Positions 1,740 to 12,833 of a stretch of 64,000 nucleotides of DNA are shown here, one piece after another. Position numbers and translations under genes: made by a program. Position 1 is the first letter of the stretch, and each line of letters begins with the position of its first letter. Source of the DNA: Methanolobus sp. ZRKC5 (GTDB lineage: Archaea > Halobacteriota > Methanosarcinia > Methanosarcinales > Methanosarcinaceae); NCBI RefSeq assembly GCF_038446525.1, contig NZ_CP151792.1:1612001-1676000 (forward strand), given 5' to 3'. The notes beneath the pieces are model-generated. The model was given only the letters and a program-made list of their open reading frames with translations. It had not been told where the DNA came from and did not search any database.

Positions 1740-3110
1740 ATGCGAGAAAAAAAGACGAACAACGACAAAAAAGTGATTATAATAGGCGGTGGTGCAGTAG
1801 GAATGGCTGTAGCTACAAGCCTTACCCGTCACAGCAACTATTCTGTAACCGTGTTCTCTGAAGACAAACACACAGCATATAGCCAGTGTGGGATGCCTTT
1901 TGTCATTGGAAAGCAGATCAAGAATTTCGAATCGTTGATCCTGAGAGATAATAAGTTCTTCAAAGATATGGGAATAGACCTTCGACTTGAAAGCAGAGTA
2001 GATTCCATAGACATTGAAGGACAAAACATTAGCTCCAACGAACAAGAATACCACTTCGACAAACTTGTTATTGCCACAGGCAGCAAACCAAGGATACCCG
2101 GGAATATCCAGGGAACCTCACTTAAAAATGTATTCACCCTGAGAACGCTCTCAGATGCTATGAAAATAGAGGAAGCACTTGCTAAAGCATCAAGTGGTGT
2201 GATAATTGGAGGGGGAGCAATTGGTGCAGAACTTGCAGCAGCCATTTCCCAGAGGGACATAAGCACCATACTTCTCAACAGAAGTTCATCTATTCTCTCA
2301 CATAACATCGACCCTGACATGGCAGAATCAGTAAAGGAACATCTTGAATCCCTCGGAGTTAAAGTCATAACAGAACAGACACCTGAATCAATAAATGGAG
2401 AAACACATGCTGAATCCGTTACAATTGCTTCTACTAAATTTCCAGCAGACCTTGTAATAATATCCACAGGAATTGAACCAGAGAATGAACTGGCTTCCAG
2501 TGCAGGAATTGATATAGGAGATACCGGAGGGATAATTGTGAACAAATATTTGCACCCATCAGTTGGAGGAAAATTTCATCAGGACATTTTCTGTGGCGGA
2601 GAATGCGTAGAAGTCCATGAGCTTATCACCGGGAAACCAATGCTAAGCCAAATTGCAAGCACTGCAAGGAGGATGGCAGGAATCATAACGAACAATCTTA
2701 CTTCAAGCCCCGGTGAATTTGGCCCTATTCTCAATCCCTGGGTAGCTGTCATAGGAGAATTACAAGTTGGAACTACAGGGCTCACGTCAAAAGGAGCAAG
2801 GGAAAATAATATCAAAATAGTAACCGGCCTGGCAACTGGATCAACACGGGCAGATTACTATCCAGGAGGCAGTAAACTTTTTATCAAGCTAATATTCAGT
2901 GAAAGATATCTCGTTGGAGCCCAGGTAGTTGGAGGGGAAGGAGTAAAAGAACGTATTGATGCACTCACACTTGCCATCAAAAAAAGAACAAGCGTGGATG
3001 AACTGGCAAACATCGAGACCTGCTACGCTCCACCCGTATCAATGCTTATAGACCCTGTTAGTTTTGCTGCGAAGGGTGCGTTGAAAAAGATGCGTAAAAT
3101 AAGAAAATGA
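1740..3110 (+). CDS. FAD-dependent pyridine nucleotide-disulfide oxidoreductase (NADH oxidase / CoA-disulfide reductase type)
   Basis: Flavoprotein of the NADH oxidase/CoA-disulfide reductase family, a cytosolic enzyme using NAD(P)H to reduce a disulfide, polysulfide or oxygen; the exact substrate cannot be read from sequence. The FAD-binding Rossmann motif IIIGGGAVG is at residues about 13-21. The single redox cysteine of this family is Cys50 in SQCGMPF. The NAD(P)-binding motif VIIGGGAIGAELA is near residue 155. The second FAD motif (DIFCGGEC) and the C-terminal dimerisation domain with CYAPPVS complete a 456-residue, full-length protein. The last four bases (ATGA) overlap the rtcA start, so the two are probably co-transcribed. 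The ribosome-binding site (AGAAG) is weak. A MITE sits just upstream. Confidence 0.85.
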   Translation: MREKKTNNDKKVIIIGGGAVGMAVATSLTRHSNYSVTVFSEDKHTAYSQCGMPFVIGKQIKNFESLILRDNKFFKDMGIDLRLESRVDSIDIEGQNISSNEQEYHFDKLVIATGSKPRIPGNIQGTSLKNVFTLRTLSDAMKIEEALAKASSGVIIGGGAIGAELAAAISQRDISTILLNRSSSILSHNIDPDMAESVKEHLESLGVKVITEQTPESINGETHAESVTIASTKFPADLVIISTGIEPENELASSAGIDIGDTGGIIVNKYLHPSVGGKFHQDIFCGGECVEVHELITGKPMLSQIASTARRMAGIITNNLTSSPGEFGPILNPWVAVIGELQVGTTGLTSKGARENNIKIVTGLATGSTRADYYPGGSKLFIKLIFSERYLVGAQVVGGEGVKERIDALTLAIKKRTSVDELANIETCYAPPVSMLIDPVSFAAKGALKKMRKIRK

Positions 3111-4102
3111 TAGAAATAGATGGTTCCTACGGAGAAGGTGGAGGACAGATACTCAGGACAGCCGTTGCCCTTTCAGCTATTATTAAAGAAGATATCGAAA
3201 TAAATAATATACGTCATAATCGTCCAAAAAAAGGACTGAAAACCCAGCATCTCAAATCCATTGAGGCTGTTGCCATGATGTGTGATGCCGACATCAATGG
3301 ACTTTTTCCGGGCTCCACTCAGATATACTTTTCTCCATCGGAAATAAGGGGGGTTGAAACACACATACAGATTGGAACTGCAGGAAGTATTCCATTGCTC
3401 ATGCAGTCTATCATGCCAATAGCCGCTTATTCTCCAGAAAGGACAAAACTGAGAATAACTGGGGGAACCGATGTTGCATGGTCTCCATCAATAGACTACT
3501 TGAAAGAACTGACATTAAATGCTCTGTCAAAAATGGGGTACAAAGCAGATATAAGACTTATTGAACGTGGATATTACCCAAAAGGTGGAGGGGTCGCAGA
3601 AATAGAAATAAAACCTTCCACATTAAAAGGATTTGACTTTAAAACAGTGAAAAAGGAGATACATGGAGTATCACATTGTTCTAACCTGCCTGAACATGTC
3701 GCAAAAAGGCAGGCTGATTCTGCGCAGAAAGTGCTGGAAGAGAATGGAACAGATGTGCATATTGACATTGAAACAGAAAATTACCACTCAACCGGAAGCG
3801 GAATCACATTATGGTCTGGTCTTGCGGGATCTGTAAATACAGGAAAAAAAGGAATGCCTGCAGAAAAAGTAGGTAGTCAGGCAGCCCTGATATTGCTTGA
3901 TGAACTGAAATCCCGGGCAGCTGTTGATATTCATCTGGCTGACCAACTAATACCTTACATGGGACTTGCCGGAAGCGGATCATTTACCACAAGGGAGCTT
4001 ACACCGCATTGCCTGACAAACATCCACGTGACCGAACAGTTACTTGACGTACACTTCGTAATAAATAAAAGCAACGGCCTGATAAAAATATCCGTAGAAT
4101 GA
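3107..4102 (+). CDS. rtcA: RNA 3'-terminal phosphate cyclase
   Basis: RtcA converts an RNA 3'-phosphate to a 2',3'-cyclic phosphate using ATP through a covalent protein-AMP intermediate. The 331-residue length is normal for the family. The signature opening IEIDGSYGEGGGQILRTA is at residues 2-19. The adenylated histidine is expected in the C-terminal segment reading FTTRELTPHCLTNIHV. The gene overlaps the upstream disulfide reductase by 4 bases and converges on kptA with only three bases between stops. Together with kptA and the RNA ligase at 9290 this makes three RNA-end-processing genes within 7 kb. Identification is confident. Confidence 0.94.
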   Translation: MIEIDGSYGEGGGQILRTAVALSAIIKEDIEINNIRHNRPKKGLKTQHLKSIEAVAMMCDADINGLFPGSTQIYFSPSEIRGVETHIQIGTAGSIPLLMQSIMPIAAYSPERTKLRITGGTDVAWSPSIDYLKELTLNALSKMGYKADIRLIERGYYPKGGGVAEIEIKPSTLKGFDFKTVKKEIHGVSHCSNLPEHVAKRQADSAQKVLEENGTDVHIDIETENYHSTGSGITLWSGLAGSVNTGKKGMPAEKVGSQAALILLDELKSRAAVDIHLADQLIPYMGLAGSGSFTTRELTPHCLTNIHVTEQLLDVHFVINKSNGLIKISVE

Positions 4103-4105
4103 GGA

Positions 4106-4741
4106 TCATTCCTCAAGTTCTACAACACTGAGATATTCCGGTGGAATTCCCCTTGCAAGAACAATGTCAGCATTTACGGTAACAATATCGACCCCATCCT
4201 GCTGAGCAGCATTTGCATCTACCTCGATAATAACAGGGTTATCCGTGTGAACCGAAGCGGCTTCCTTTGATTTTTCAAATGAGGTACTAAGATGTACATA
4301 GCACTGCCTGATAGGGAAGATACCATTATCGAGCAACATGTCCGTCTCTTCCTGACTGACACCATAGTACAGGTAAGGCAGATCATTTTCAGGATAATCA
4401 GATATAAGGTCCACATCTACAGAGTGGCCATATCTTGCCCTTATGAAATTGTCCTCTATCTCATAACGCCCTTTCAGGTCAGATTCAACAAGTGAGATCA
4501 GACGCTCCATGGTTCCCCATTTATAGCGTTTTTTCATGACATCGCAAAGTTGACCCAGCCCTACCCAGCCTAGTGAGTCCATTTCAATACCCACGTCTTC
4601 AGGGAAGTGTCTCAATGCACCGGAAACAAACCTTCCAAGTCTCTCTTCCCGATCATCATCCAGCACATAACGTCCTTCTTCTCCACAATCAGGGCAGCTT
4701 TCTCCCCTGAAATAGCCATGCTCTTTACATTTACGGATCAT
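4106..4741 (-). CDS. kptA: RNA 2'-phosphotransferase, KptA/Tpt1 family
   Basis: KptA/Tpt1 enzymes remove an RNA 2'-phosphate by transferring it to NAD+. The protein (211 residues from the chosen start) opens with a zinc-finger-like CKEHGYFRGESCPDCG segment common in archaeal members. The catalytic domain follows, with RLGRFVSGALRH, the RARYGHS motif, YYGVSQE and the CYVHLST motif. Two ATGs further upstream (4759, 4822) are possible. However, the most upstream one lies beyond a TATA-like stretch (about 4765-4778), and the ATG at 4741 would sit at the expected transcription start, so a leaderless message from 4741 is favoured. It is convergent with rtcA, in keeping with shared RNA-repair roles. 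Confidence 0.9.
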   Translation of the reverse strand: MIRKCKEHGYFRGESCPDCGEEGRYVLDDDREERLGRFVSGALRHFPEDVGIEMDSLGWVGLGQLCDVMKKRYKWGTMERLISLVESDLKGRYEIEDNFIRARYGHSVDVDLISDYPENDLPYLYYGVSQEETDMLLDNGIFPIRQCYVHLSTSFEKSKEAASVHTDNPVIIEVDANAAQQDGVDIVTVNADIVLARGIPPEYLSVVELEE

Positions 4742-4938
4742 GATATCTTGCAAATACATCTTATAATTAATATATCTTATTAAAATGACGCAACAATCAC
4801 AATATAATTCATAAAATATCAAAATACCAGGATTTTTATAAACATCTTCGTTAGATTAATTATCTAAGAGAATACTAGACTAGTTGAAAGGTAAATGGAT
4901 GATTTTAATATATTCAATTCAGTTTTCAAGGTATTATC

Positions 4939-6066
4939 ATGGATGAGATAAATGACATATATGAAAAGCTCGGCGGCATCATCAGTAAAGAAGATTTTAC
5001 ACGTGAGGTTGAAGAGAAAGTAGAACAAATGAGCGGACTCTGCGACATCAGGACCGCCGCCATGCTTGTGGCCCACGACCATGGAGCCAGTGACACAGGA
5101 GAAAACCAATTGCAGAAAATATCAGGCATAACTCCAAGCAGTGGTAATATCAAGTTCATTGCAAAGGTCATGTCTGTTTTCCCTGCAAAGGAATTCAACC
5201 GAAATGACGGCACCGTTGGCAGAGTTGCAAATATCATTGTTGCAGACGAAACCGGATCTATACGCCTGACATTATGGGATGACAGGGCAGATCTTGTGAA
5301 GACAGGAAATATTGAAGTTGGCCAGAATTACCAGGTAGCCGGCTACGTCAAGGAAGGATATTCCGGTATTGAAGTAAATATAGGCAACAACGGGGTTCTT
5401 TGTGAAACAGATGAAAAAGTAGAAGCCCGCATCGATTCAAAAAAGATAGAAGATATCAAAAGTGGAATGGGTGACCTTAACATTCGTGGCAGGATCCTTG
5501 ATATAGCCGATATAAGAACATTCAACAAAAAAGATGGTACTGTCGGAAAAGTCGCAAACATTATGATCGGTGATGAAACAGGCAAAATAAGAGTGACACT
5601 CTGGGATGAGACTGCAGATCTTACAACAGAACTCCAGACAGATGACTCTGTAGAAATAATCAATGGATACGCAAAGGAGAACAATTTCAACCAGCAGGTA
5701 GAAATGCAGGTTGGAAATCGCAGTACTATCAGAAAAATCGAGGATGAAGTAGAGTTCAAGGAAGATTTCACATCCATAGCTGATATCATACCGGGAGAAT
5801 CATATTCCATATCAGGACAGGTGTCAGGACTTGGGGAAATGAAGGAATTCGATCGGGACGACGGGACTGTGAATATGGTTTCAAACATTTATGTCTCAGA
5901 TGATACCGGAAGGATACGAATTGCATTATGGGGCGACCATGCCCTCCTTGTAGACCAGCTAGATATCGATATGGCTGTGGAAATAATTGATGCATTCTCT
6001 AAATCCGGATTCAATGATGAAATAGAACTTAGTGCAGGAAACCGGACAAGAATAGTTGTTCGTTAA
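4939..6066 (+). CDS. Single-stranded DNA-binding protein RPA, three OB folds
   Basis: Archaeal replication protein A: binds single-stranded DNA during replication and repair. After an N-terminal helical segment (residues 1-60) there are three repeated OB folds at about 66-160, 170-265 and 275-375. Each carries the recurring pattern F(N/D)xxDGTVxxVxNIxVxDxTGxIRxxLW. No zinc finger is visible at the C-terminus, unlike some other methanogen RPA paralogues. TATA-like sequences lie near 4834 and 4905, the latter about 30 bases before the start. AAGG at 4928-4931 may serve as ribosome-binding site. The gene is monocistronic and divergent from kptA. Family assignment is firm; which paralogue number it corresponds to is not determined. 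Confidence 0.9.
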   Translation: MDEINDIYEKLGGIISKEDFTREVEEKVEQMSGLCDIRTAAMLVAHDHGASDTGENQLQKISGITPSSGNIKFIAKVMSVFPAKEFNRNDGTVGRVANIIVADETGSIRLTLWDDRADLVKTGNIEVGQNYQVAGYVKEGYSGIEVNIGNNGVLCETDEKVEARIDSKKIEDIKSGMGDLNIRGRILDIADIRTFNKKDGTVGKVANIMIGDETGKIRVTLWDETADLTTELQTDDSVEIINGYAKENNFNQQVEMQVGNRSTIRKIEDEVEFKEDFTSIADIIPGESYSISGQVSGLGEMKEFDRDDGTVNMVSNIYVSDDTGRIRIALWGDHALLVDQLDIDMAVEIIDAFSKSGFNDEIELSAGNRTRIVVR

Positions 6067-6279
6067 ATGAATTATATTTTATTAGAATGTCCGGCACATT
6101 CACTTTGAATTGTTCCGGAATCTTTTTTTTATTATAGCAACTTGTCTGCTGCTATTATCGGCAACATGCAAATCATATTAAAAAATCTACGAACACCTAT
6201 TTATACGATAAAAGTAACATTTTATCTAGTGGACTATGGGTAATTGATTCCTTTAATCCAGAATTTTGGGGTACATTTT

Positions 6280-6888
6280 ATGGTCTTGAAAGTTCAGGAT
6301 GACATTCAAACCGATGTCTCCATAATGGAGATTCATAATGAGATGTTGGTCAAGGAAATAATGTCAAAGCACGTTTTTGGCATTGATGTCACTGCTAGTG
6401 TCCTTGATGTTGCAAGGAAAATGGCGGAAAAAGATACAGGTAGCATCATCGTAAATGAAGACGGTGATAGTACCGGCATCATAACTGAACGTGACATAAT
6501 AATCAAAACGGTTGTCAGAAATGTACTCCCTGCAAAGATGACTGCCAGAGAGATCATGTCGACTCCTATTATAGCAACAAAACCGGCGACGAACATAATC
6601 GAAGCTGCTGAAATGATGGTGAGATCCAACATTCGCAGGCTTGCTGTGATGGAAGGTGACCAAATAATTGGAATGGTAACTGACAGGGATATAATAGCTA
6701 TTGCACCCGGTCTGAACACTATTCTGGAAGGTCTGATCGAACTACATCATGAGAATAACTATACTCAGGAACCGGAGCTTGAACGTGGCATATGCCAACG
6801 TTGCGGAGCTTTTGTTGACAGCCTGACGAATGTTAATGAATTGATGCTGTGTGAAGATTGTAAAGAAGAAGAAGGTTACTATGACTAG
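6280..6888 (+). CDS. CBS-domain pair protein with C-terminal zinc ribbon
   Basis: Predicted cytosolic regulatory protein of 202 residues. Two CBS motifs (about residues 25-80 and 90-145, reading EIMSKHVFG... and EIMSTPIIA...) form one Bateman module, a fold that usually binds adenine nucleotides or S-adenosylmethionine. The C-terminus carries CQRCG...LCEDC, a four-cysteine zinc ribbon. An in-frame ATG at 6244 exists, but the ATG at 6280 has GGGG about eight bases upstream and is preferred. It is the first of three CBS-only proteins in 3 kb. Ligand and partner are unknown. Confidence 0.85.
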   Translation: MVLKVQDDIQTDVSIMEIHNEMLVKEIMSKHVFGIDVTASVLDVARKMAEKDTGSIIVNEDGDSTGIITERDIIIKTVVRNVLPAKMTAREIMSTPIIATKPATNIIEAAEMMVRSNIRRLAVMEGDQIIGMVTDRDIIAIAPGLNTILEGLIELHHENNYTQEPELERGICQRCGAFVDSLTNVNELMLCEDCKEEEGYYD

Positions 6889-6935
6889 TCCTTTGACTTG
6901 GTATCTATTAAGAACGCTTCAAGTTGGTGAAATAA

Positions 6936-7088
6936 ATGTCTGTCCCGATATATCTTAAAAGAAGAAATGTATCGACTTTCAAAGCAACGCCTGGATTTAA
7001 GCTGGGAACAGTGATTAAAAACCGGGATATTGTGTTTGCTGGATCTACTGTTGCTATAAACAGGCATTGTACATTATCTGAGTTTTGA
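6936..7088 (+). CDS. Possible 50-residue small protein, unrecognised
   Basis: A short open frame begins at an ATG preceded by GGTG (about eight bases upstream) and encodes 50 residues opening MSVPIYLKRRNVSTF. It contains no motif I recognise. It lies in the gap between two CBS-protein genes, next to another decayed frame, so it may equally be the N-terminal remnant of a longer gene. Supported only by start context and frame length. Confidence 0.3.
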   Translation: MSVPIYLKRRNVSTFKATPGFKLGTVIKNRDIVFAGSTVAINRHCTLSEF

Positions 7089-7218
7089 AAGTGCGATCTT
7101 GCACTTACATGCAGAGTGTAATCAACCATGAGGCATGGATATCGTTCGCAAAACTTATTGAGATTATAAGAACATATCCTCAGTAATTTTGTTATGTTGT
7201 GGAATATAGTGGTTTAGA

Positions 7219-7485
7219 TTGATAATAAAATATCAGGTCAATGAACTGGAAATGAAGATAATGGGATTCCAGAGAAAAGACCCCGGATTGCTGACAACTT
7301 CAGTGCTTACTATGATCAAATCAGATGATACAACCATATCAACTGATATTATGACTTAATTAGGAGGTGGAAAAGAAAACCCGATTGCAAACGGGAATTG
7401 TCACAAATGTGGCTTTCATGAAAAAATGATAGATGGATCTGTTTTCATGAAACATAAACAGATTCACAGACAAGTATATGATTAG
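7219..7485 (+). pseudogene. Remnant of a small zinc-finger protein with an in-frame stop
   Basis: One reading frame is open from about 7210 to 7485 except for a single TAA at 7357-7359. Before the stop it reads MKIMGFQRKDPGLLTTSVL and so on. After the stop it encodes a plausible metal-binding tail with NCHKCGFHEK followed by FMKHKQIHRQ (a CxxC-x(n)-HxxxH arrangement). Continuity of frame on both sides of one stop, and the zinc-finger-like end, suggest a gene disabled by a nonsense change. A chance pairing of two short frames remains possible. The only starts available are TTG 7219 or internal ATGs (7252). Confidence 0.35.
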
Positions 7486-7609
7486 AAACAAAAAGAGCAC
7501 ATCGATCCGCTGAAACTGGAAATGATGAGTTCTTTGATGGATAATAGATTAAATATATCCTGCAGGCTTGTCCTGATGAAAGGTCAAGCTTCCAAAAAGG
7601 AGGAACAAC

Positions 7610-8449
7610 ATGAATGTGAAAGACATTATGAGTTCACCGGTCTTTACCATAGCACCGGAAGAAACCGTAGCGCATGCAAGAAACCTGATGCTTAAGCACA
7701 AGATCAGCACCCTGGTGGTTGCTCAGAATGAAGAAATGATTGGTATTATCACAAAGACAGACCTTGGAAAAAGGCTTGCACAAGCCGAACCCATGTGGAG
7801 AAGAAGACCAATTGATAAAATTCCTGTAAACATGGTGATGCATGAAAACCCCATCACAATATACCCAGGTGCTTCTGTGACCCAGGCAATCGATCTGATG
7901 ATGGAGAATGGTATAAACTCACTGGCCGTAGTGAACAGGGAAGTAGTTGGTATAATAACTGGAACTGACATTATGAAATACTTCTCTGAGCAGGATGTGA
8001 AAACTAAAATTTCAGAAGTAATGACAGAAGATATCGTGTTTGTCCACAGACATCACACTATCAATCATGTAATCCATGAAATGGAGGAGAACAAGACAAA
8101 CCGTGTTATCGTTACAGATGATTCTGATGAAGCTGTTGGAATGATAACAACAAGCAACGTGGCATTCAATATAATGGCTGACAATGAAGGAAAACTTCCA
8201 TCAAAGAGTATAAAGATGACCAGGCGTTCAACTCCTGCTGGTCAGAAGGAATATCGCTACGTAAAAGAAGTTCCTCTTGTTTCCGAAGATATAATGTCAG
8301 AGCTCCCACCAGCTGTAGATATCAAGAACAAGGCAGTGTATGCAGCAAAGATGATGCTATCAGAACACACTATTGCCCTACCGGTTGTTAATGATGGGAA
8401 AATTATTGGCCTTATCAGCAGGAGAGACATACTTAAAGCAGTACAGTAA
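7610..8449 (+). CDS. CBS-domain protein with four CBS motifs
   Basis: A 279-residue protein made almost only of CBS motifs. Four copies begin near residues 4, 75, 132 and 222 (DIMSSPVFTI, MVMHENPITI, EVMTEDIVFV, DIMSELPPAV), forming two Bateman modules. A charged linker near 190-220 separates the last copy. Such proteins sense adenine nucleotides or similar ligands and usually control a partner. A strong GGAGGAAC site precedes the ATG. The gene is followed after 45 bases by another four-CBS protein, then the RNA ligase and the SelB-like GTPase, all in one direction and probably one operon. No catalytic domain is present. Confidence 0.87.
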   Translation: MNVKDIMSSPVFTIAPEETVAHARNLMLKHKISTLVVAQNEEMIGIITKTDLGKRLAQAEPMWRRRPIDKIPVNMVMHENPITIYPGASVTQAIDLMMENGINSLAVVNREVVGIITGTDIMKYFSEQDVKTKISEVMTEDIVFVHRHHTINHVIHEMEENKTNRVIVTDDSDEAVGMITTSNVAFNIMADNEGKLPSKSIKMTRRSTPAGQKEYRYVKEVPLVSEDIMSELPPAVDIKNKAVYAAKMMLSEHTIALPVVNDGKIIGLISRRDILKAVQ

Positions 8450-8494
8450 GCATCGAATAACCAGAAAAGTGAAATAAAGATCAGAGGAATGACA

Positions 8495-9271
8495 ATGGAA
8501 GTAAAGGATATAATGGCAGAACCACTGGTAGTAGATAAATCAGACACTATTTCCCATGCACTTGACATTATGGACAAGAAAGGGACAAGACGTCTTCTGG
8601 TAAGACACGATGATAAGCTGCTTGGCGTACTTACCATGAGAAACCTTACAAGGGAACTCGGAACTCGTAAAAAAGGAAGTAAGCCAGCTTCTTCCCTGCA
8701 TGTAGCAACAGCAATATCAGATAATTTCACAAAAGTACTGCCGGATACGAAGGCAACCGATGCTATCACGCTGATGGTAAAGAACGGAGGAGTGATAGTT
8801 GTTATGGAGAATGACAAGATTCTTGGTTGGGTGACTCCTAACGAGATACTCAAGAACAACATTTTCAGCGGGTATGCCGGAGAGATAATGCAACCGGATC
8901 CTATTGTAGCAAGTCCTGCAGACCGTGTCAGCCATGTAAGAAGACTTATGCTTGACAACAATGTTGGAAGAATACCTATCATAGAAGGTGACAAACTTGT
9001 TGGAATGGTAACGGAAACGGATATTGCAACAGCCATGCGCTCTTTCCGTGACCTGGTCGAAGGCAGTAAACAGGATTCCCGTATAAAGAATCTTATTGTC
9101 GAGGATATTATAAAGATGAGTGTAAAAACAGTCTACACAAACACCTCAACAACTGATGCAGCAAAAATGATGCTAGAAGAGAATCTTGGAGGACTGCCCG
9201 TTATCAACCTTGAAGGTCAGATGGTTGGGCTAATAACCAGAAGAAGCATTATCAGAGGAATGGCACAGTAA
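8495..9271 (+). CDS. CBS-domain protein with four CBS motifs
   Basis: A 258-residue CBS-only protein, a paralogue of its upstream neighbour. CBS motifs begin near residues 3, 62, 125 and 195 ([10 protein letters not shown], ...[30 protein letters not shown]). The start was placed at the second ATG (8495) because AGAGGA abuts the first ATG (8489) and is correctly spaced for the second. It lies 45 bases after the preceding CBS gene and 18 bases before the RNA ligase, so co-transcription is likely. Ligand and partner are unknown; the context suggests a link to RNA ligation or translation, which is inference. Confidence 0.86.
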
Positions 9272-9289
9272 AGAACCAGGTGTCTGGGG

Positions 9290-10456
9290 ATGAAATATTA
9301 CCCGAAGATAGAACTTGATATTGAGAAGGCGGCAGACTGTTTGGAACTTCCGCCTTCCAGACTTCAAGAACTTGTTGAGAAGAAAAACCTGCAACAAAAC
9401 TGGGATGAATACAACAATATTTACAGATTTGAAGGACACGTACCAAATTTTGAAGACGGGACCGTGTTGATCGATAAATCTGGCTCTTTTGAACTCATAA
9501 GGGGTTTTCCTAAGATTAAAAGAGCAATGCTTCTTGAACCTGCAGTAAAGAAAAATTTCGGTGAAATAGATTCTGTAGCTGTTGAAGAGAAAATGAACGG
9601 ATATAATGTCCGTGTTATCGACTACAACAGTAAACTCATTGCTTTTACCCGTAGCGGCCATGTTTGCCCTTATTCTACGGAAAGGGTACGGAAATTCCTC
9701 AAAAGGGATTTCTTCATAGATCACCCTGATATCATTGTATATGGAGAAATGGTGGGCCCTGATAATCCATATGTGCAAAAATATGTCTACAATATAGAGT
9801 CCCTGAAATTTTTTGTTTTTGACTTGAGGTATAAGAATTCAGGAGAAGCCCTGACAGTCCACAAAAGGAGAGAATTGGCAGAGGAATATACTTTCGATAA
9901 TGTTAGGTTATTTGGTAAATTCAACATCAGTGAAGCACCTGGCGAGATTACAAAAATTATCAAAGAACTTGGAAAAAAGGGACACGAAGGCGTTGTTATC
10001 AAAGATCCTGAGATGGTATTGCAACCAATGAAATACACATGTTCAGAAAGTAATTGTTCTGACCTGCACCATGCATTCAAATTCTACAATGAAACCGGAC
10101 GGGATTTCCTCTTCTCCAGAGTAGTACGTGAGGGGTTCCAGTCTTACGAATGGAAAGAAAATGAGGAAGATTTCCAGAAAAGATGCCTCAGGCTTGGAGA
10201 AAGTTTACTCAACCCGATGAAAAAGACGATAGCTCAGGTCCAGGCAGGCCAGCGGATCTCCGATGATTTCAAGATCAGAGTAGGGGACAAGGAAACCATC
10301 CACAAATTCAGATCATATCTGCAGAGATTTGGTCTTTATGTTGCGTTCGAGATACAGGAGAAAAAAGGTGATGAATATATCATCAACATCAGGAAGGTAA
10401 ACAAGAGCACAAATGATAAGACCCTTGCAATGTTAGAAGGACAGTTGTGGTCGTGA
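9290..10456 (+). CDS. ATP-dependent RNA ligase, archaeal Rnl3 / Pab1020 family
   Basis: Homodimeric RNA ligase family known from Pyrococcus Pab1020 and Methanothermobacter MthRnl, which joins 5'-phosphate and 3'-hydroxyl RNA ends and can circularise RNA. The 388-residue length fits. The nucleotidyl-transfer motif is EEKMNGYNVRV with catalytic Lys101. Later motifs include YGEMVGPDNPY (about 147-157) and EGVVIKDPE (about 235). The C-terminal region carries the family's dimerisation and extra helical part. It follows a CBS gene by 18 bases and precedes the SelB-like GTPase by 53. With rtcA and kptA nearby it makes an RNA-repair neighbourhood. Confidence 0.92.
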   Translation: MKYYPKIELDIEKAADCLELPPSRLQELVEKKNLQQNWDEYNNIYRFEGHVPNFEDGTVLIDKSGSFELIRGFPKIKRAMLLEPAVKKNFGEIDSVAVEEKMNGYNVRVIDYNSKLIAFTRSGHVCPYSTERVRKFLKRDFFIDHPDIIVYGEMVGPDNPYVQKYVYNIESLKFFVFDLRYKNSGEALTVHKRRELAEEYTFDNVRLFGKFNISEAPGEITKIIKELGKKGHEGVVIKDPEMVLQPMKYTCSESNCSDLHHAFKFYNETGRDFLFSRVVREGFQSYEWKENEEDFQKRCLRLGESLLNPMKKTIAQVQAGQRISDDFKIRVGDKETIHKFRSYLQRFGLYVAFEIQEKKGDEYIINIRKVNKSTNDKTLAMLEGQLWS

Positions 10457-10509
10457 AAAAGACATATATCCAAATAGATTAATTCGTGAACCACAAAAAG
10501 GGTGCCCAT

Positions 10510-11547
10510 ATGACAAAGATTACCATCATCGGAAGTGAGCAAAGCGGTAAGACCACGCTTGCCGGAAAACTTGGAAAGAGAAGTAACGTTACAGATGTCA
10601 CAATGTATGATTATGCCAAGAACAACAGGATACTCACAACCATTGATGCTACCGGTTATCCGGCATCTGTAAAAGCGTTGGTTACAGCACTTAACCTTTC
10701 TGATGTTGCTCTTTTATGTATACCTCCAACAGGACTTGATCCACTGGCTGCAGAGTGTATCATTGCACTTGACCTGATGAAATATAAACATGGTATTGTT
10801 GTTCTCACAAAATCTGATGCTTCATATCCTCTTGCACAGGAAGAGCTACAGGCCAAGTTACAGAAAATTACAACAGGAACTGCACTTGAGAACTGGGATT
10901 ACATTTCCATATCCACTACTTCTTTTGAAGGCATGGAAGAGCTAAAAGAACTCATATTCACAGTTGGTGACAGGGCAGCTGAAGATTTAAAAGAACTTGA
11001 CAGCCTGCGCCCACGTATAATAATAGACCAGTCTTTCAACGTTACCGGTATCGGATGTGTAGTGCTTGGAGTTACGACACAGGGAACCATTAACGCAAAG
11101 GACAAGATGATAGCATACCCAACCAAAAAGGAACTGGAGATCAGATCCATACAGATGCATGATGTAGATGTCAAATCTGCCCCTGCGGGTGCCAGAGTTG
11201 GACTTGCCCTCAAAGGTATCCAGTCAAAGGACATTGACAGAGGCTTTATAGTTTCACAGGAAGAAACTGTTGCTACGGATTTTATATTAAAATGCACTCT
11301 TTCACCACTGGCAAAAGAATTCAATCTCGGTGATATGCTACATCTTTATGTTGGACTCCAGTCTTCACCTGTAAAAGTTACAGAAATAACTGAAGGTGAG
11401 AATAAAGTTGAAAAGGCAAGTCCGGGAAAAGAATATATCTTTAAATTAACCGGCTCAAAGGAAGTTGCCTACAGCAAAAATGACAGATTTATCTTTGCAA
11501 ATCTTGATGAAAAACAGAGGTTCATTGCTTTTGGCTATGAACAATGA
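10510..11547 (+). CDS. SelB-like translational GTPase family protein (EF-Tu/EF-1A type, aSelBL-like)
   Basis: A 345-residue protein with a G domain related to EF-1A/SelB and the following beta-barrel domains. The P-loop GSEQSGKT is at residues 8-15. The usual DxPGH becomes DATGYP and the NKxD motif reads TKSD, so nucleotide-binding motifs are partly degenerate. Domain 2 starts near residue 175 (SFNVTGIGCVVLGVT). A family of SelB-like proteins in archaea without selenocysteine has been described, and this fits that pattern; its role is not established. The ATG at 10510 is preferred over 10486 because AAAGGGTG precedes it. It is the last gene of the CBS/CBS/RNA ligase run. Confidence 0.75.
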   Translation: MTKITIIGSEQSGKTTLAGKLGKRSNVTDVTMYDYAKNNRILTTIDATGYPASVKALVTALNLSDVALLCIPPTGLDPLAAECIIALDLMKYKHGIVVLTKSDASYPLAQEELQAKLQKITTGTALENWDYISISTTSFEGMEELKELIFTVGDRAAEDLKELDSLRPRIIIDQSFNVTGIGCVVLGVTTQGTINAKDKMIAYPTKKELEIRSIQMHDVDVKSAPAGARVGLALKGIQSKDIDRGFIVSQEETVATDFILKCTLSPLAKEFNLGDMLHLYVGLQSSPVKVTEITEGENKVEKASPGKEYIFKLTGSKEVAYSKNDRFIFANLDEKQRFIAFGYEQ

Positions 11548-11567: not shown

Positions 11568-12077
11568 CTATTTCTTTTTAGGTGTCAGATGTCTGGCACC
11601 ATCCAAAAAAGAAGGCCTATCTATAGATTTAGGACGTTCTACATTTTCCGGCAGGTCCACAAGACCTGGTTGACGGATCATATCAGATGAACCGGAAAAT
11701 ACAACATTGGAACTTTTGTAGCCGGAACCGATATTTGAAGTTGTACGGTCTTTTTTCGTACGGTCAATTGAGATAGCAGAAGGTTGCTCAACTTCATTTG
11801 ATGAGCTTTTTTGGGAAAGTCCTGATTTTGTATCTCTTTCCTTTACTTTAGAACCTTCTTCTTTGCCACCATTGTATTGCTCTTTTACAAAATCCCTGAG
11901 TTCATATTCTTCAGCAAACTTGTATATTTGCGATAGTTTTTCCTGGACCCAGCCAATTTCAGAGTGGCGATGGTAACCTACTTCAAAACCTAACCTGCGG
12001 GATGCATCTGCAAGCTGCACCTTGCCTTCTTCAGGAAGAATTTTTTTTTCTTCCTTTTTCTTAAAGATCTTTACCAT
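11568..12077 (-). CDS. Conserved-looking hypothetical protein with disordered C-terminus
   Basis: A 169-residue protein I do not recognise. The N-terminal half is charged and probably helical (MVKIFKKKEEKKILPEEGK, then a segment around YHRHSEIGWVQEKLSQIYKF). From about residue 70 on it is rich in Ser, Lys, Asp and Pro and likely disordered, ending in TPKKK. It starts 12 bases after the stop of the KaiC-like ATPase and is surely co-transcribed with it. A partner or substrate role to that ATPase is a reasonable guess but nothing more. An upstream TTG start is possible; the ATG at 12077 is preferred. Confidence 0.65.
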   Translation of the reverse strand: MVKIFKKKEEKKILPEEGKVQLADASRRLGFEVGYHRHSEIGWVQEKLSQIYKFAEEYELRDFVKEQYNGGKEEGSKVKERDTKSGLSQKSSSNEVEQPSAISIDRTKKDRTTSNIGSGYKSSNVVFSGSSDMIRQPGLVDLPENVERPKSIDRPSFLDGARHLTPKKK

Positions 12078-12089
12078 AAGAAACAACCA

Positions 12090-12833
12090 TTATTCAAGAT
12101 AGCCCTCTACTTTCAGCCCTTTTTCAGTGAATGAAACGCTATGCATGTTACAATCATGTTTTGTACCGCGCATCTTAATCACCTGAATAGCACGGGTCAT
12201 GGTCTTACCATAAAGGAAATTATGCATGAAAACAACACCATGAGCAGCAAACTGCTCTGTGGAATAAGCACCTGGATCAGTCATTTCAGATAGTAGCACT
12301 GTTGTACATCCTAATTTCTTAAGATTACGTATGAACCTACTCATCTCTTTTTCCTGCAGGGATAGATCTTTAGAAGTGAACCGGATTGCAGATACTGAAT
12401 CAATGACCAGGCGTTTTACCTCATATTCTGAAACATAAGCAGCTATTTCCTTAAAAACAACTGAAGGAGATGGAGCCTCACTTTCAGTCGAACTTTTGCT
12501 AATGTTATAATCCGTTGTTATAAACTCATTGATCTCATCCATATATCCATATTCCATACGTGGGCCAAGATCTGCAAACAAAAGTTTCTTCATTTTTATC
12601 AGTGTCATGACATTCATAGCATAGTTAGACATGTCATTGATAATGTTCTGTGGGCATTCAAGTAAAGTTACGTATAATCCCACTTCTCCTATCGCCGCTC
12701 CTTGAGCAAGAAACTGAACTCCAAATGTTGTTTTTCCACTTCCCGGCGGACCGCTCAGCACATAAACCCTCTCTGAAAGAAAGCCGCCCTGGACCAAATC
12801 GTCAAATCCCTCAATCCCTGTAGGTATTCGCAT
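12090..12833 (-). CDS. KaiC-like RecA-superfamily ATPase
   Basis: Single-domain RecA/KaiC-like ATPase of 247 residues, opening with RIPTGIEGFDDLVQGGF as KaiC family members do. Walker A is GPPGSGKTT near residue 30. Walker B is RLVIDSVSAI near residue 142. The conserved EE pair seen in KaiC after Walker A is not obvious (TLLECP is present instead). Archaea have many such single-domain KaiC-like proteins, several of them signalling or motility ATPases. Divergent from the SpoIIM-like membrane protein gene and upstream of a small disordered-protein gene. Specific function unknown. Confidence 0.85.
   Translation of the reverse strand: MRIPTGIEGFDDLVQGGFLSERVYVLSGPPGSGKTTFGVQFLAQGAAIGEVGLYVTLLECPQNIINDMSNYAMNVMTLIKMKKLLFADLGPRMEYGYMDEINEFITTDYNISKSSTESEAPSPSVVFKEIAAYVSEYEVKRLVIDSVSAIRFTSKDLSLQEKEMSRFIRNLKKLGCTTVLLSEMTDPGAYSTEQFAAHGVVFMHNFLYGKTMTRAIQVIKMRGTKHDCNMHSVSFTEKGLKVEGYLE

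Follow-up and report, generated by a model that had tools for sequence, protein, structure and literature searches.

In the window analysed here, a 64,000-nucleotide stretch of the Methanolobus sp. ZRKC5 genome (one contig, 3.05 Mb), two adjacent genes for CBS-domain proteins are followed by a gene for an RNA ligase, and we read this locus as the Methanolobus form of the sri ribosome-hibernation cluster with an RNA-repair ligase attached to it (probability about 0.6). The CBS (Sri) proteins are the part already known, since early 2026. The conservation of gene order and strand between the CBS genes and the ligase (117 of 120 loci, about ten archaeal families) is far beyond chance and suggests that the ligase repairs RNA when cells are dormant or waking up. 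A preliminary description of the window had listed four genes, namely CBS, CBS, ligase and SelB-like GTPase, all on the + strand, and both their domains and their coordinates agree with our analysis, as do the spacings of 45, 18 and 53 bases; the first of these holds from the second ATG of the SriD gene and is otherwise 39 bases. As a unit the block 7610–11547 is nevertheless too short, because the row starts at the gene for a CBS protein with a Zn ribbon. The features are as follows.

6280–6888, + strand: Ta0289-like protein with a CBS pair and a Zn ribbon, whose gene opens the conserved row; two CBS domains, E-value (E) 2.5e-25
7228–7410, + strand: remnant of a decayed SriB-type CBS gene, with weak colinear CBS_3 matches
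7610–8449, + strand: SriC orthologue with four CBS domains (E 4e-50), CM-1 type; PDB chain 9zni_6, E 4e-97
8489/8495–9271, + strand: SriD orthologue with four CBS domains (E 4e-45), assigned to the CM-2 type; PDB chains 9zni_7/9zng_7, E 9e-106
9290–10456, + strand: predicted Rnl3/Pab1020-type ATP-dependent RNA ligase (PF09414, PF18330, TIGR01209)
10510–11547, + strand: aSelBL, orthologue of Methanosarcina mazei MM1309, an aminoacyl-transfer RNA (tRNA)-binding EF-Tu-like protein; MM1309 structure PDB 3wnb, E 8e-115

The CBS proteins and the Methanolobus form of the cluster

A domain search found four CBS domains, and nothing else, in each of the proteins encoded at 7610–8449 and 8489–9271. The PDB matches of the first lead to chain 6 of entry 9zni and those of the second to chains 9zni_7 and 9zng_7 (about 1e-105). 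Predicting the structure of the second protein without an alignment gave an unusable model (predicted local distance difference test score, pLDDT, 37), while a prediction with 30 orthologues reached a pLDDT of 89 and had 9zng_7 as its best Foldseek match (template modelling score 0.95). The entries, released on 28 January 2026, are titled as the M. acetivorans 70S ribosome in complex with SriD (9zng), with SriC and SriD (9zni) and with SriA and SriB (9znf), and the uL2 protein nearest to that of our genome is the one found in these three entries. From the titles of 9zng and 9zni and the chain matches it follows that chain 7 is SriD and chain 6 is SriC; thus the window holds orthologues of both, side by side and ordered as they are in Methanosarcina loci. 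Structures of the M. acetivorans orthologues solved by others (PDB 9zni, 9zng) demonstrate ribosome binding by SriC and SriD and, by orthology, the two proteins of the window are almost certainly ribosome-binding hibernation factors.

The same modules have been grouped as CM families in a study of HibA, in which a methanogen "CM-5/4/1/2 cluster" was proposed to encode hibernation factors, CM-1 and CM-4 were detected in dormant M. acetivorans ribosomes, and AMP binding was demonstrated for the related HibA module (PMC13324472). The SriA-type gene matches the N-terminal module of Dri and SriC the C-terminal one, which places SriA as CM-5 and SriC as CM-1; the assignment of SriB to CM-4 and of SriD to CM-2 follows from gene order only. 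In SriC the ribose-binding Asp is kept at two CBS sites (Asp51 and Asp120, 99/99 sequences), in SriD at one (96/97 sequences). Both proteins also carry a near-invariant basic loop between CBS3 and CBS4, at the same place as the loop whose functional role was stressed for Dri and HibA (PMC13324472). Unlike HibA, neither protein is fused to an HPF/RaiA domain, and since only CBS domains were found, membership of the HibA group was ruled out. The preliminary description knew of no account of such a system; parts of it are in fact covered by the Sri–ribosome structures, by the HibA/CM paper (PMC13324472) and by Atkinson et al. 2011 (PMC3037878).

In comparison with SriA–SriD of M. acetivorans, the Methanolobus cluster differs in that SriB is a pseudogene and SriA is encoded at a distant site of the genome. 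The 720-base gap between the CBS-Zn-ribbon gene and SriC marks the place of these two lost CBS genes, both of which are missing there in 17 of 20 Methanolobus loci, the window included. The other three Methanolobus loci, and every locus examined from the rest of the Methanosarcinaceae, have an intact SriB-type gene at the place of the remnant. The CBS_3 match is weak in the window, but a wrecked SriB gene in the homologous gap of locus L032, a gap with 81% DNA identity to this one, gives a match with E 9e-8. The SriA orthologue was located at G000:C1:1308207-1308977 (E 2e-70, 44% identity); no SriB orthologue was found elsewhere in the genome.

The gap itself (6889–7609) matched no known RNA family in an Rfam search. 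It contains an element at 6921–7088 that is conserved throughout the 21 Methanolobus sequences set against each other and consists of two nested inverted repeats, with 19 predicted pairs, one of which shows a compensatory change. An open frame of 47–51 codons follows a GGTGA site within the element (6936–7088 in the window); the codon positions of this frame vary equally among the sequences compared, with no codon-position bias. The element is either a structured RNA or a small protein.

Conservation and limits of the CBS–ligase linkage

Genes were labelled locus by locus around 120 ligase genes from genomes of the same phylum. The ancestral row reads CBS-Zn-ribbon, SriA, SriB, SriC, SriD, ligase, with CBS genes upstream of the ligase in 117 of the 120 loci and full six-gene sets in 68. 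Its SriA and SriB genes match chains 9znf_4 and 9znf_5 of the ribosome entry with SriA and SriB. No violation of this order was seen, and all 476 CBS genes lie on the strand of the ligase. As many of the sampled genomes are closely related, the independent cases number closer to ten, roughly the count of families, than to 117. The random gene order around the ligase that would have spoken against the preliminary description was thus not seen. The smallest version occurs in family f9, which we tentatively take to be Archaeoglobaceae, where the Zn-ribbon gene, an SriB-like gene and the ligase make up the whole row in 19/19 loci. The CBS-Zn-ribbon gene, which belongs to the row at most of the 120 loci, encodes a protein that matches Ta0289 (PDB 1pvm, E 1.8e-9) and in which Cys155, 158, 174 and 177 are each at least 95% conserved; its start at 6280 was picked from orthologues within an open frame of 214 amino acids that starts at 6244.

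Which genes flank the row depends on the family: Methanosarcinaceae have RPA and aSelBL, f9 has DUF1464, f6 has a molybdopterin-binding protein together with an ArgZ-like enzyme, and others have an aminotransferase or a DHH protein. Because the linkage is kept while its flanks turn over, mere inheritance is unlikely and selection for the CBS–ligase linkage is likely. Short gaps and -3 overlaps speak for a possible single mRNA in most clades, the stop of SriD overlapping the start of the ligase by -3 in most Methanoperedenaceae and in many others.

Outside Methanosarcinia a gene of about 212 amino acids is usually found divergent beside the CBS-Zn-ribbon gene (L164:12355-12987, and at the same place in L279, L280, L281, L282, L284, L285, L286, L288, L290, L291, L292 and L294). 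Pfam classes the L164 copy, the sole one scanned, as a 50S-ribosome-binding GTPase (MMR_HSR1 type), a possible further link to the ribosome.

Several observations weigh against a ligase devoted to hibernation. In a survey of 391 genomes of the phylum, where ligases were counted above the TIGR01209 cut-off and SriD at E up to 1e-30, the ligase was found in 177 genomes and SriD in 221, and families f7, f8, f11, f14, f16, f19, f24, f25 and f26 have SriD with no ligase listed. The five CBS genes (CBS-Zn-ribbon and SriA–D) stand in order in 14 of 16 ligase-free SriD loci examined, and nothing recognisable recurs there at the place of the ligase. Conversely, a few genomes carry ligases without CBS neighbours (L085, L169, L170). 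In Methanosarcina and near relatives (L071–L082) gene order is intact but the gap between SriD and the ligase is mostly 1.1–1.6 kb, so that a single transcript is doubtful there and separate transcripts or long leaders are likely. Neither the PDB titles nor the HibA paper (PMC13324472) mention a ligase, SelB-like proteins being absent from the latter as well, and no RNA substrate is on record for the Rnl3 ligase of this locus. A literature search for a tie between Rnl3 ligases and hibernation, which did not cover the paper describing the Sri structures, found none.

Since sri rows without ligase and ligases without CBS genes both occur, neither absolutely requires the other, and the ligase is an old but optional addition to the row. 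It could then be a passenger that has its promoter and position in common with the sri genes while having another, unconnected function, for example the circularisation of small RNAs; Pab1020-type ligases are indeed reported to produce circular RNAs. The frequency of ligase-free rows and the isolated ligases speak for this possibility, but order, strand and overlapping frames have been kept over about ten families despite the turnover of the flanks, and we regard it as somewhat unlikely. In one reduced genome (L293, G063, Methanosarcinaceae genus g5), SriC, SriD, RPA and KptA stand together, with neither ligase nor aSelBL there.

The RNA ligase and its proposed task

The ligase combines an RNA ligase core with a Pab1020-type C-terminal domain (Lig_C, E 3e-41; TIGR01209, 390 bits against a cut-off of 137) and its PDB matches include an "ATP-dependent RNA ligase" (5d1o, E 4e-83) and PAB1020 (2vug, E 8e-58). 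The catalytic motifs are intact: motif I (EEKMNGYN) and the motifs with E153 and with E233, K238 and K248 are all invariant in 12 diverse orthologues. With the same domains and catalytic motifs as Pab1020 and MthRnl, the protein is an Rnl3 family member, predicted to join 5'-phosphate and 3'-hydroxyl RNA ends with ATP. A viral origin was rejected, viral contigs holding one weak relative.

Our reading of the locus as a hibernation cluster with a repair ligase implies the following course. When energy drops, SriC and SriD would bind the 70S ribosome, as expected from orthology, and would keep it inactive and protected; adenylates would probably tune this binding through the remaining CBS nucleotide sites. 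Rnl3 would most likely reseal 5'-phosphate/3'-hydroxyl breaks in ribosomal RNA (rRNA) or tRNA of dormant or waking cells, a role suggested by its fixed linkage and its catalytic integrity only, and in Methanosarcinaceae aSelBL would be a probable keeper of charged tRNA. A more specific version, in which Rnl3 is a dedicated repair ligase of ribosome dormancy that closes nicks in rRNA or tRNA during the time that the ribosome is held by Sri proteins, adenylate sensing by the Sri proteins times both repair and wake-up, and aSelBL guards charged tRNA, appears doubtful.

Alternatively, the ligase might help to mature or re-close rRNA, circular 23S rRNA for instance, with the Sri proteins acting on assembly or on stored subunits. 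We find this improbable: EndA and RtcB make and join another kind of RNA end, the Sri entries show complete 70S ribosomes, and the row is without any rRNA processing gene. M. acetivorans ribosomes do contain circular 23S rRNA, but its circularisation has been assigned to EndA and RtcB (PMC12918454). The preliminary description had favoured an energy-sensing system that couples RNA ligation to translation, read here as CBS proteins that sense adenylates and directly regulate the ligase. The link to translation stood, as the CBS proteins are the ribosome-binding SriC and SriD; nothing shows them regulating ligation. Adjacency of the genes and the ribose-binding Asp kept at two SriC sites and one SriD site are in favour of such direct regulation, but these proteins already have a known target in the ribosome, there is no evidence of fusion or contact with the ligase and, because ligase-free rows exist, they work without it; direct regulation is thus highly improbable.

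Upstream of the row lie genes for the RNA 3'-phosphate cyclase RtcA (3107–4102, +), the RNA 2'-phosphotransferase KptA (4106–4747, -) and RPA (4939–6066, +), and all three accompany the row in 30/30 Methanolobus, Methanomethylovorans and Methanococcoides loci. That two enzymes acting on RNA ends, RtcA and KptA, stand so near agrees with a theme of RNA repair without proving it.

In Methanococcoides, 9/10 genomes have an in-frame TAG in the ligase gene, always at one position near residue 65 and with conserved protein on both sides (loci L054, L055, L056, L058, L059 and L060); G065 (L057) has Cys instead. PylS is present in 9/9 Methanococcoides genomes tested, and the enzyme of this genus is likely a pyrrolysine-containing RNA ligase, as judged from sequence. 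The ligase gene is broken into two or three frames in L083 (G116), G082:C2:1097831-1098988 and G027:C113:4455-5584, through either recent loss or assembly error.

aSelBL and the significance of the locus

The aSelBL protein (345 amino acids; PF00009 and PF03144) has the GTP-binding and domain II regions of EF-Tu and is a short form without SelB domain IV; its TIGR00475 score of 127 bits is below the cut-off of 242 for SelB proper. The preliminary description had called this GTPase degenerate. This holds for the catalytic His of EF-Tu, which is replaced by Tyr50 in 51/51 orthologues, but little has changed in the P-loop, DxxG and TKxD motifs, the P-loop Lys being present in the window copy. As Tyr50 is common to all orthologues, the idea of a decaying gene was rejected. 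MM1309 of M. mazei binds GTP but has no GTPase activity alone, and it binds Cys-tRNA and slows its hydrolysis, the half-life rising from 80 to 300 minutes (PMC4329189). Atkinson et al. 2011 had noted that in Methanosarcinales the ligase, frequently preceded by a CBS protein, lies upstream of aSelBL (PMC3037878), although they named it a DNA ligase, gave no function for it and did not see that the CBS–ligase row predates the link to aSelBL and is more widespread. aSelBL stands downstream of the ligase in 52 of 53 loci of Methanosarcinaceae, and no other family examined has it there. Thus aSelBL, which had been counted as part of the unit, is a later addition in Methanosarcinaceae, younger in the row than the ligase and outside the ancient unit.

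Directly after aSelBL, on the opposite strand, lie genes for a KaiC-like ATPase and a 172-amino-acid partner (11568–12833, -), a pair kept at this place in most Methanosarcinaceae outside Methanosarcina.

For the Rnl3 ligases of archaea, structures have been solved and the chemistry is well studied, but there is no agreed cellular job. The conserved place of the ligase at the end of the row gives them a concrete and testable one, RNA repair in dormant or waking ribosomes. Concomitantly, the methanogens and their methane-oxidising relatives gain likely partners in hibernation, namely the Zn-ribbon CBS protein and, in Methanosarcinaceae, an EF-Tu relative that may guard tRNA. If the ligase does act in dormancy repair, it would to our knowledge be the first known RNA-repair arm of a ribosome hibernation system.

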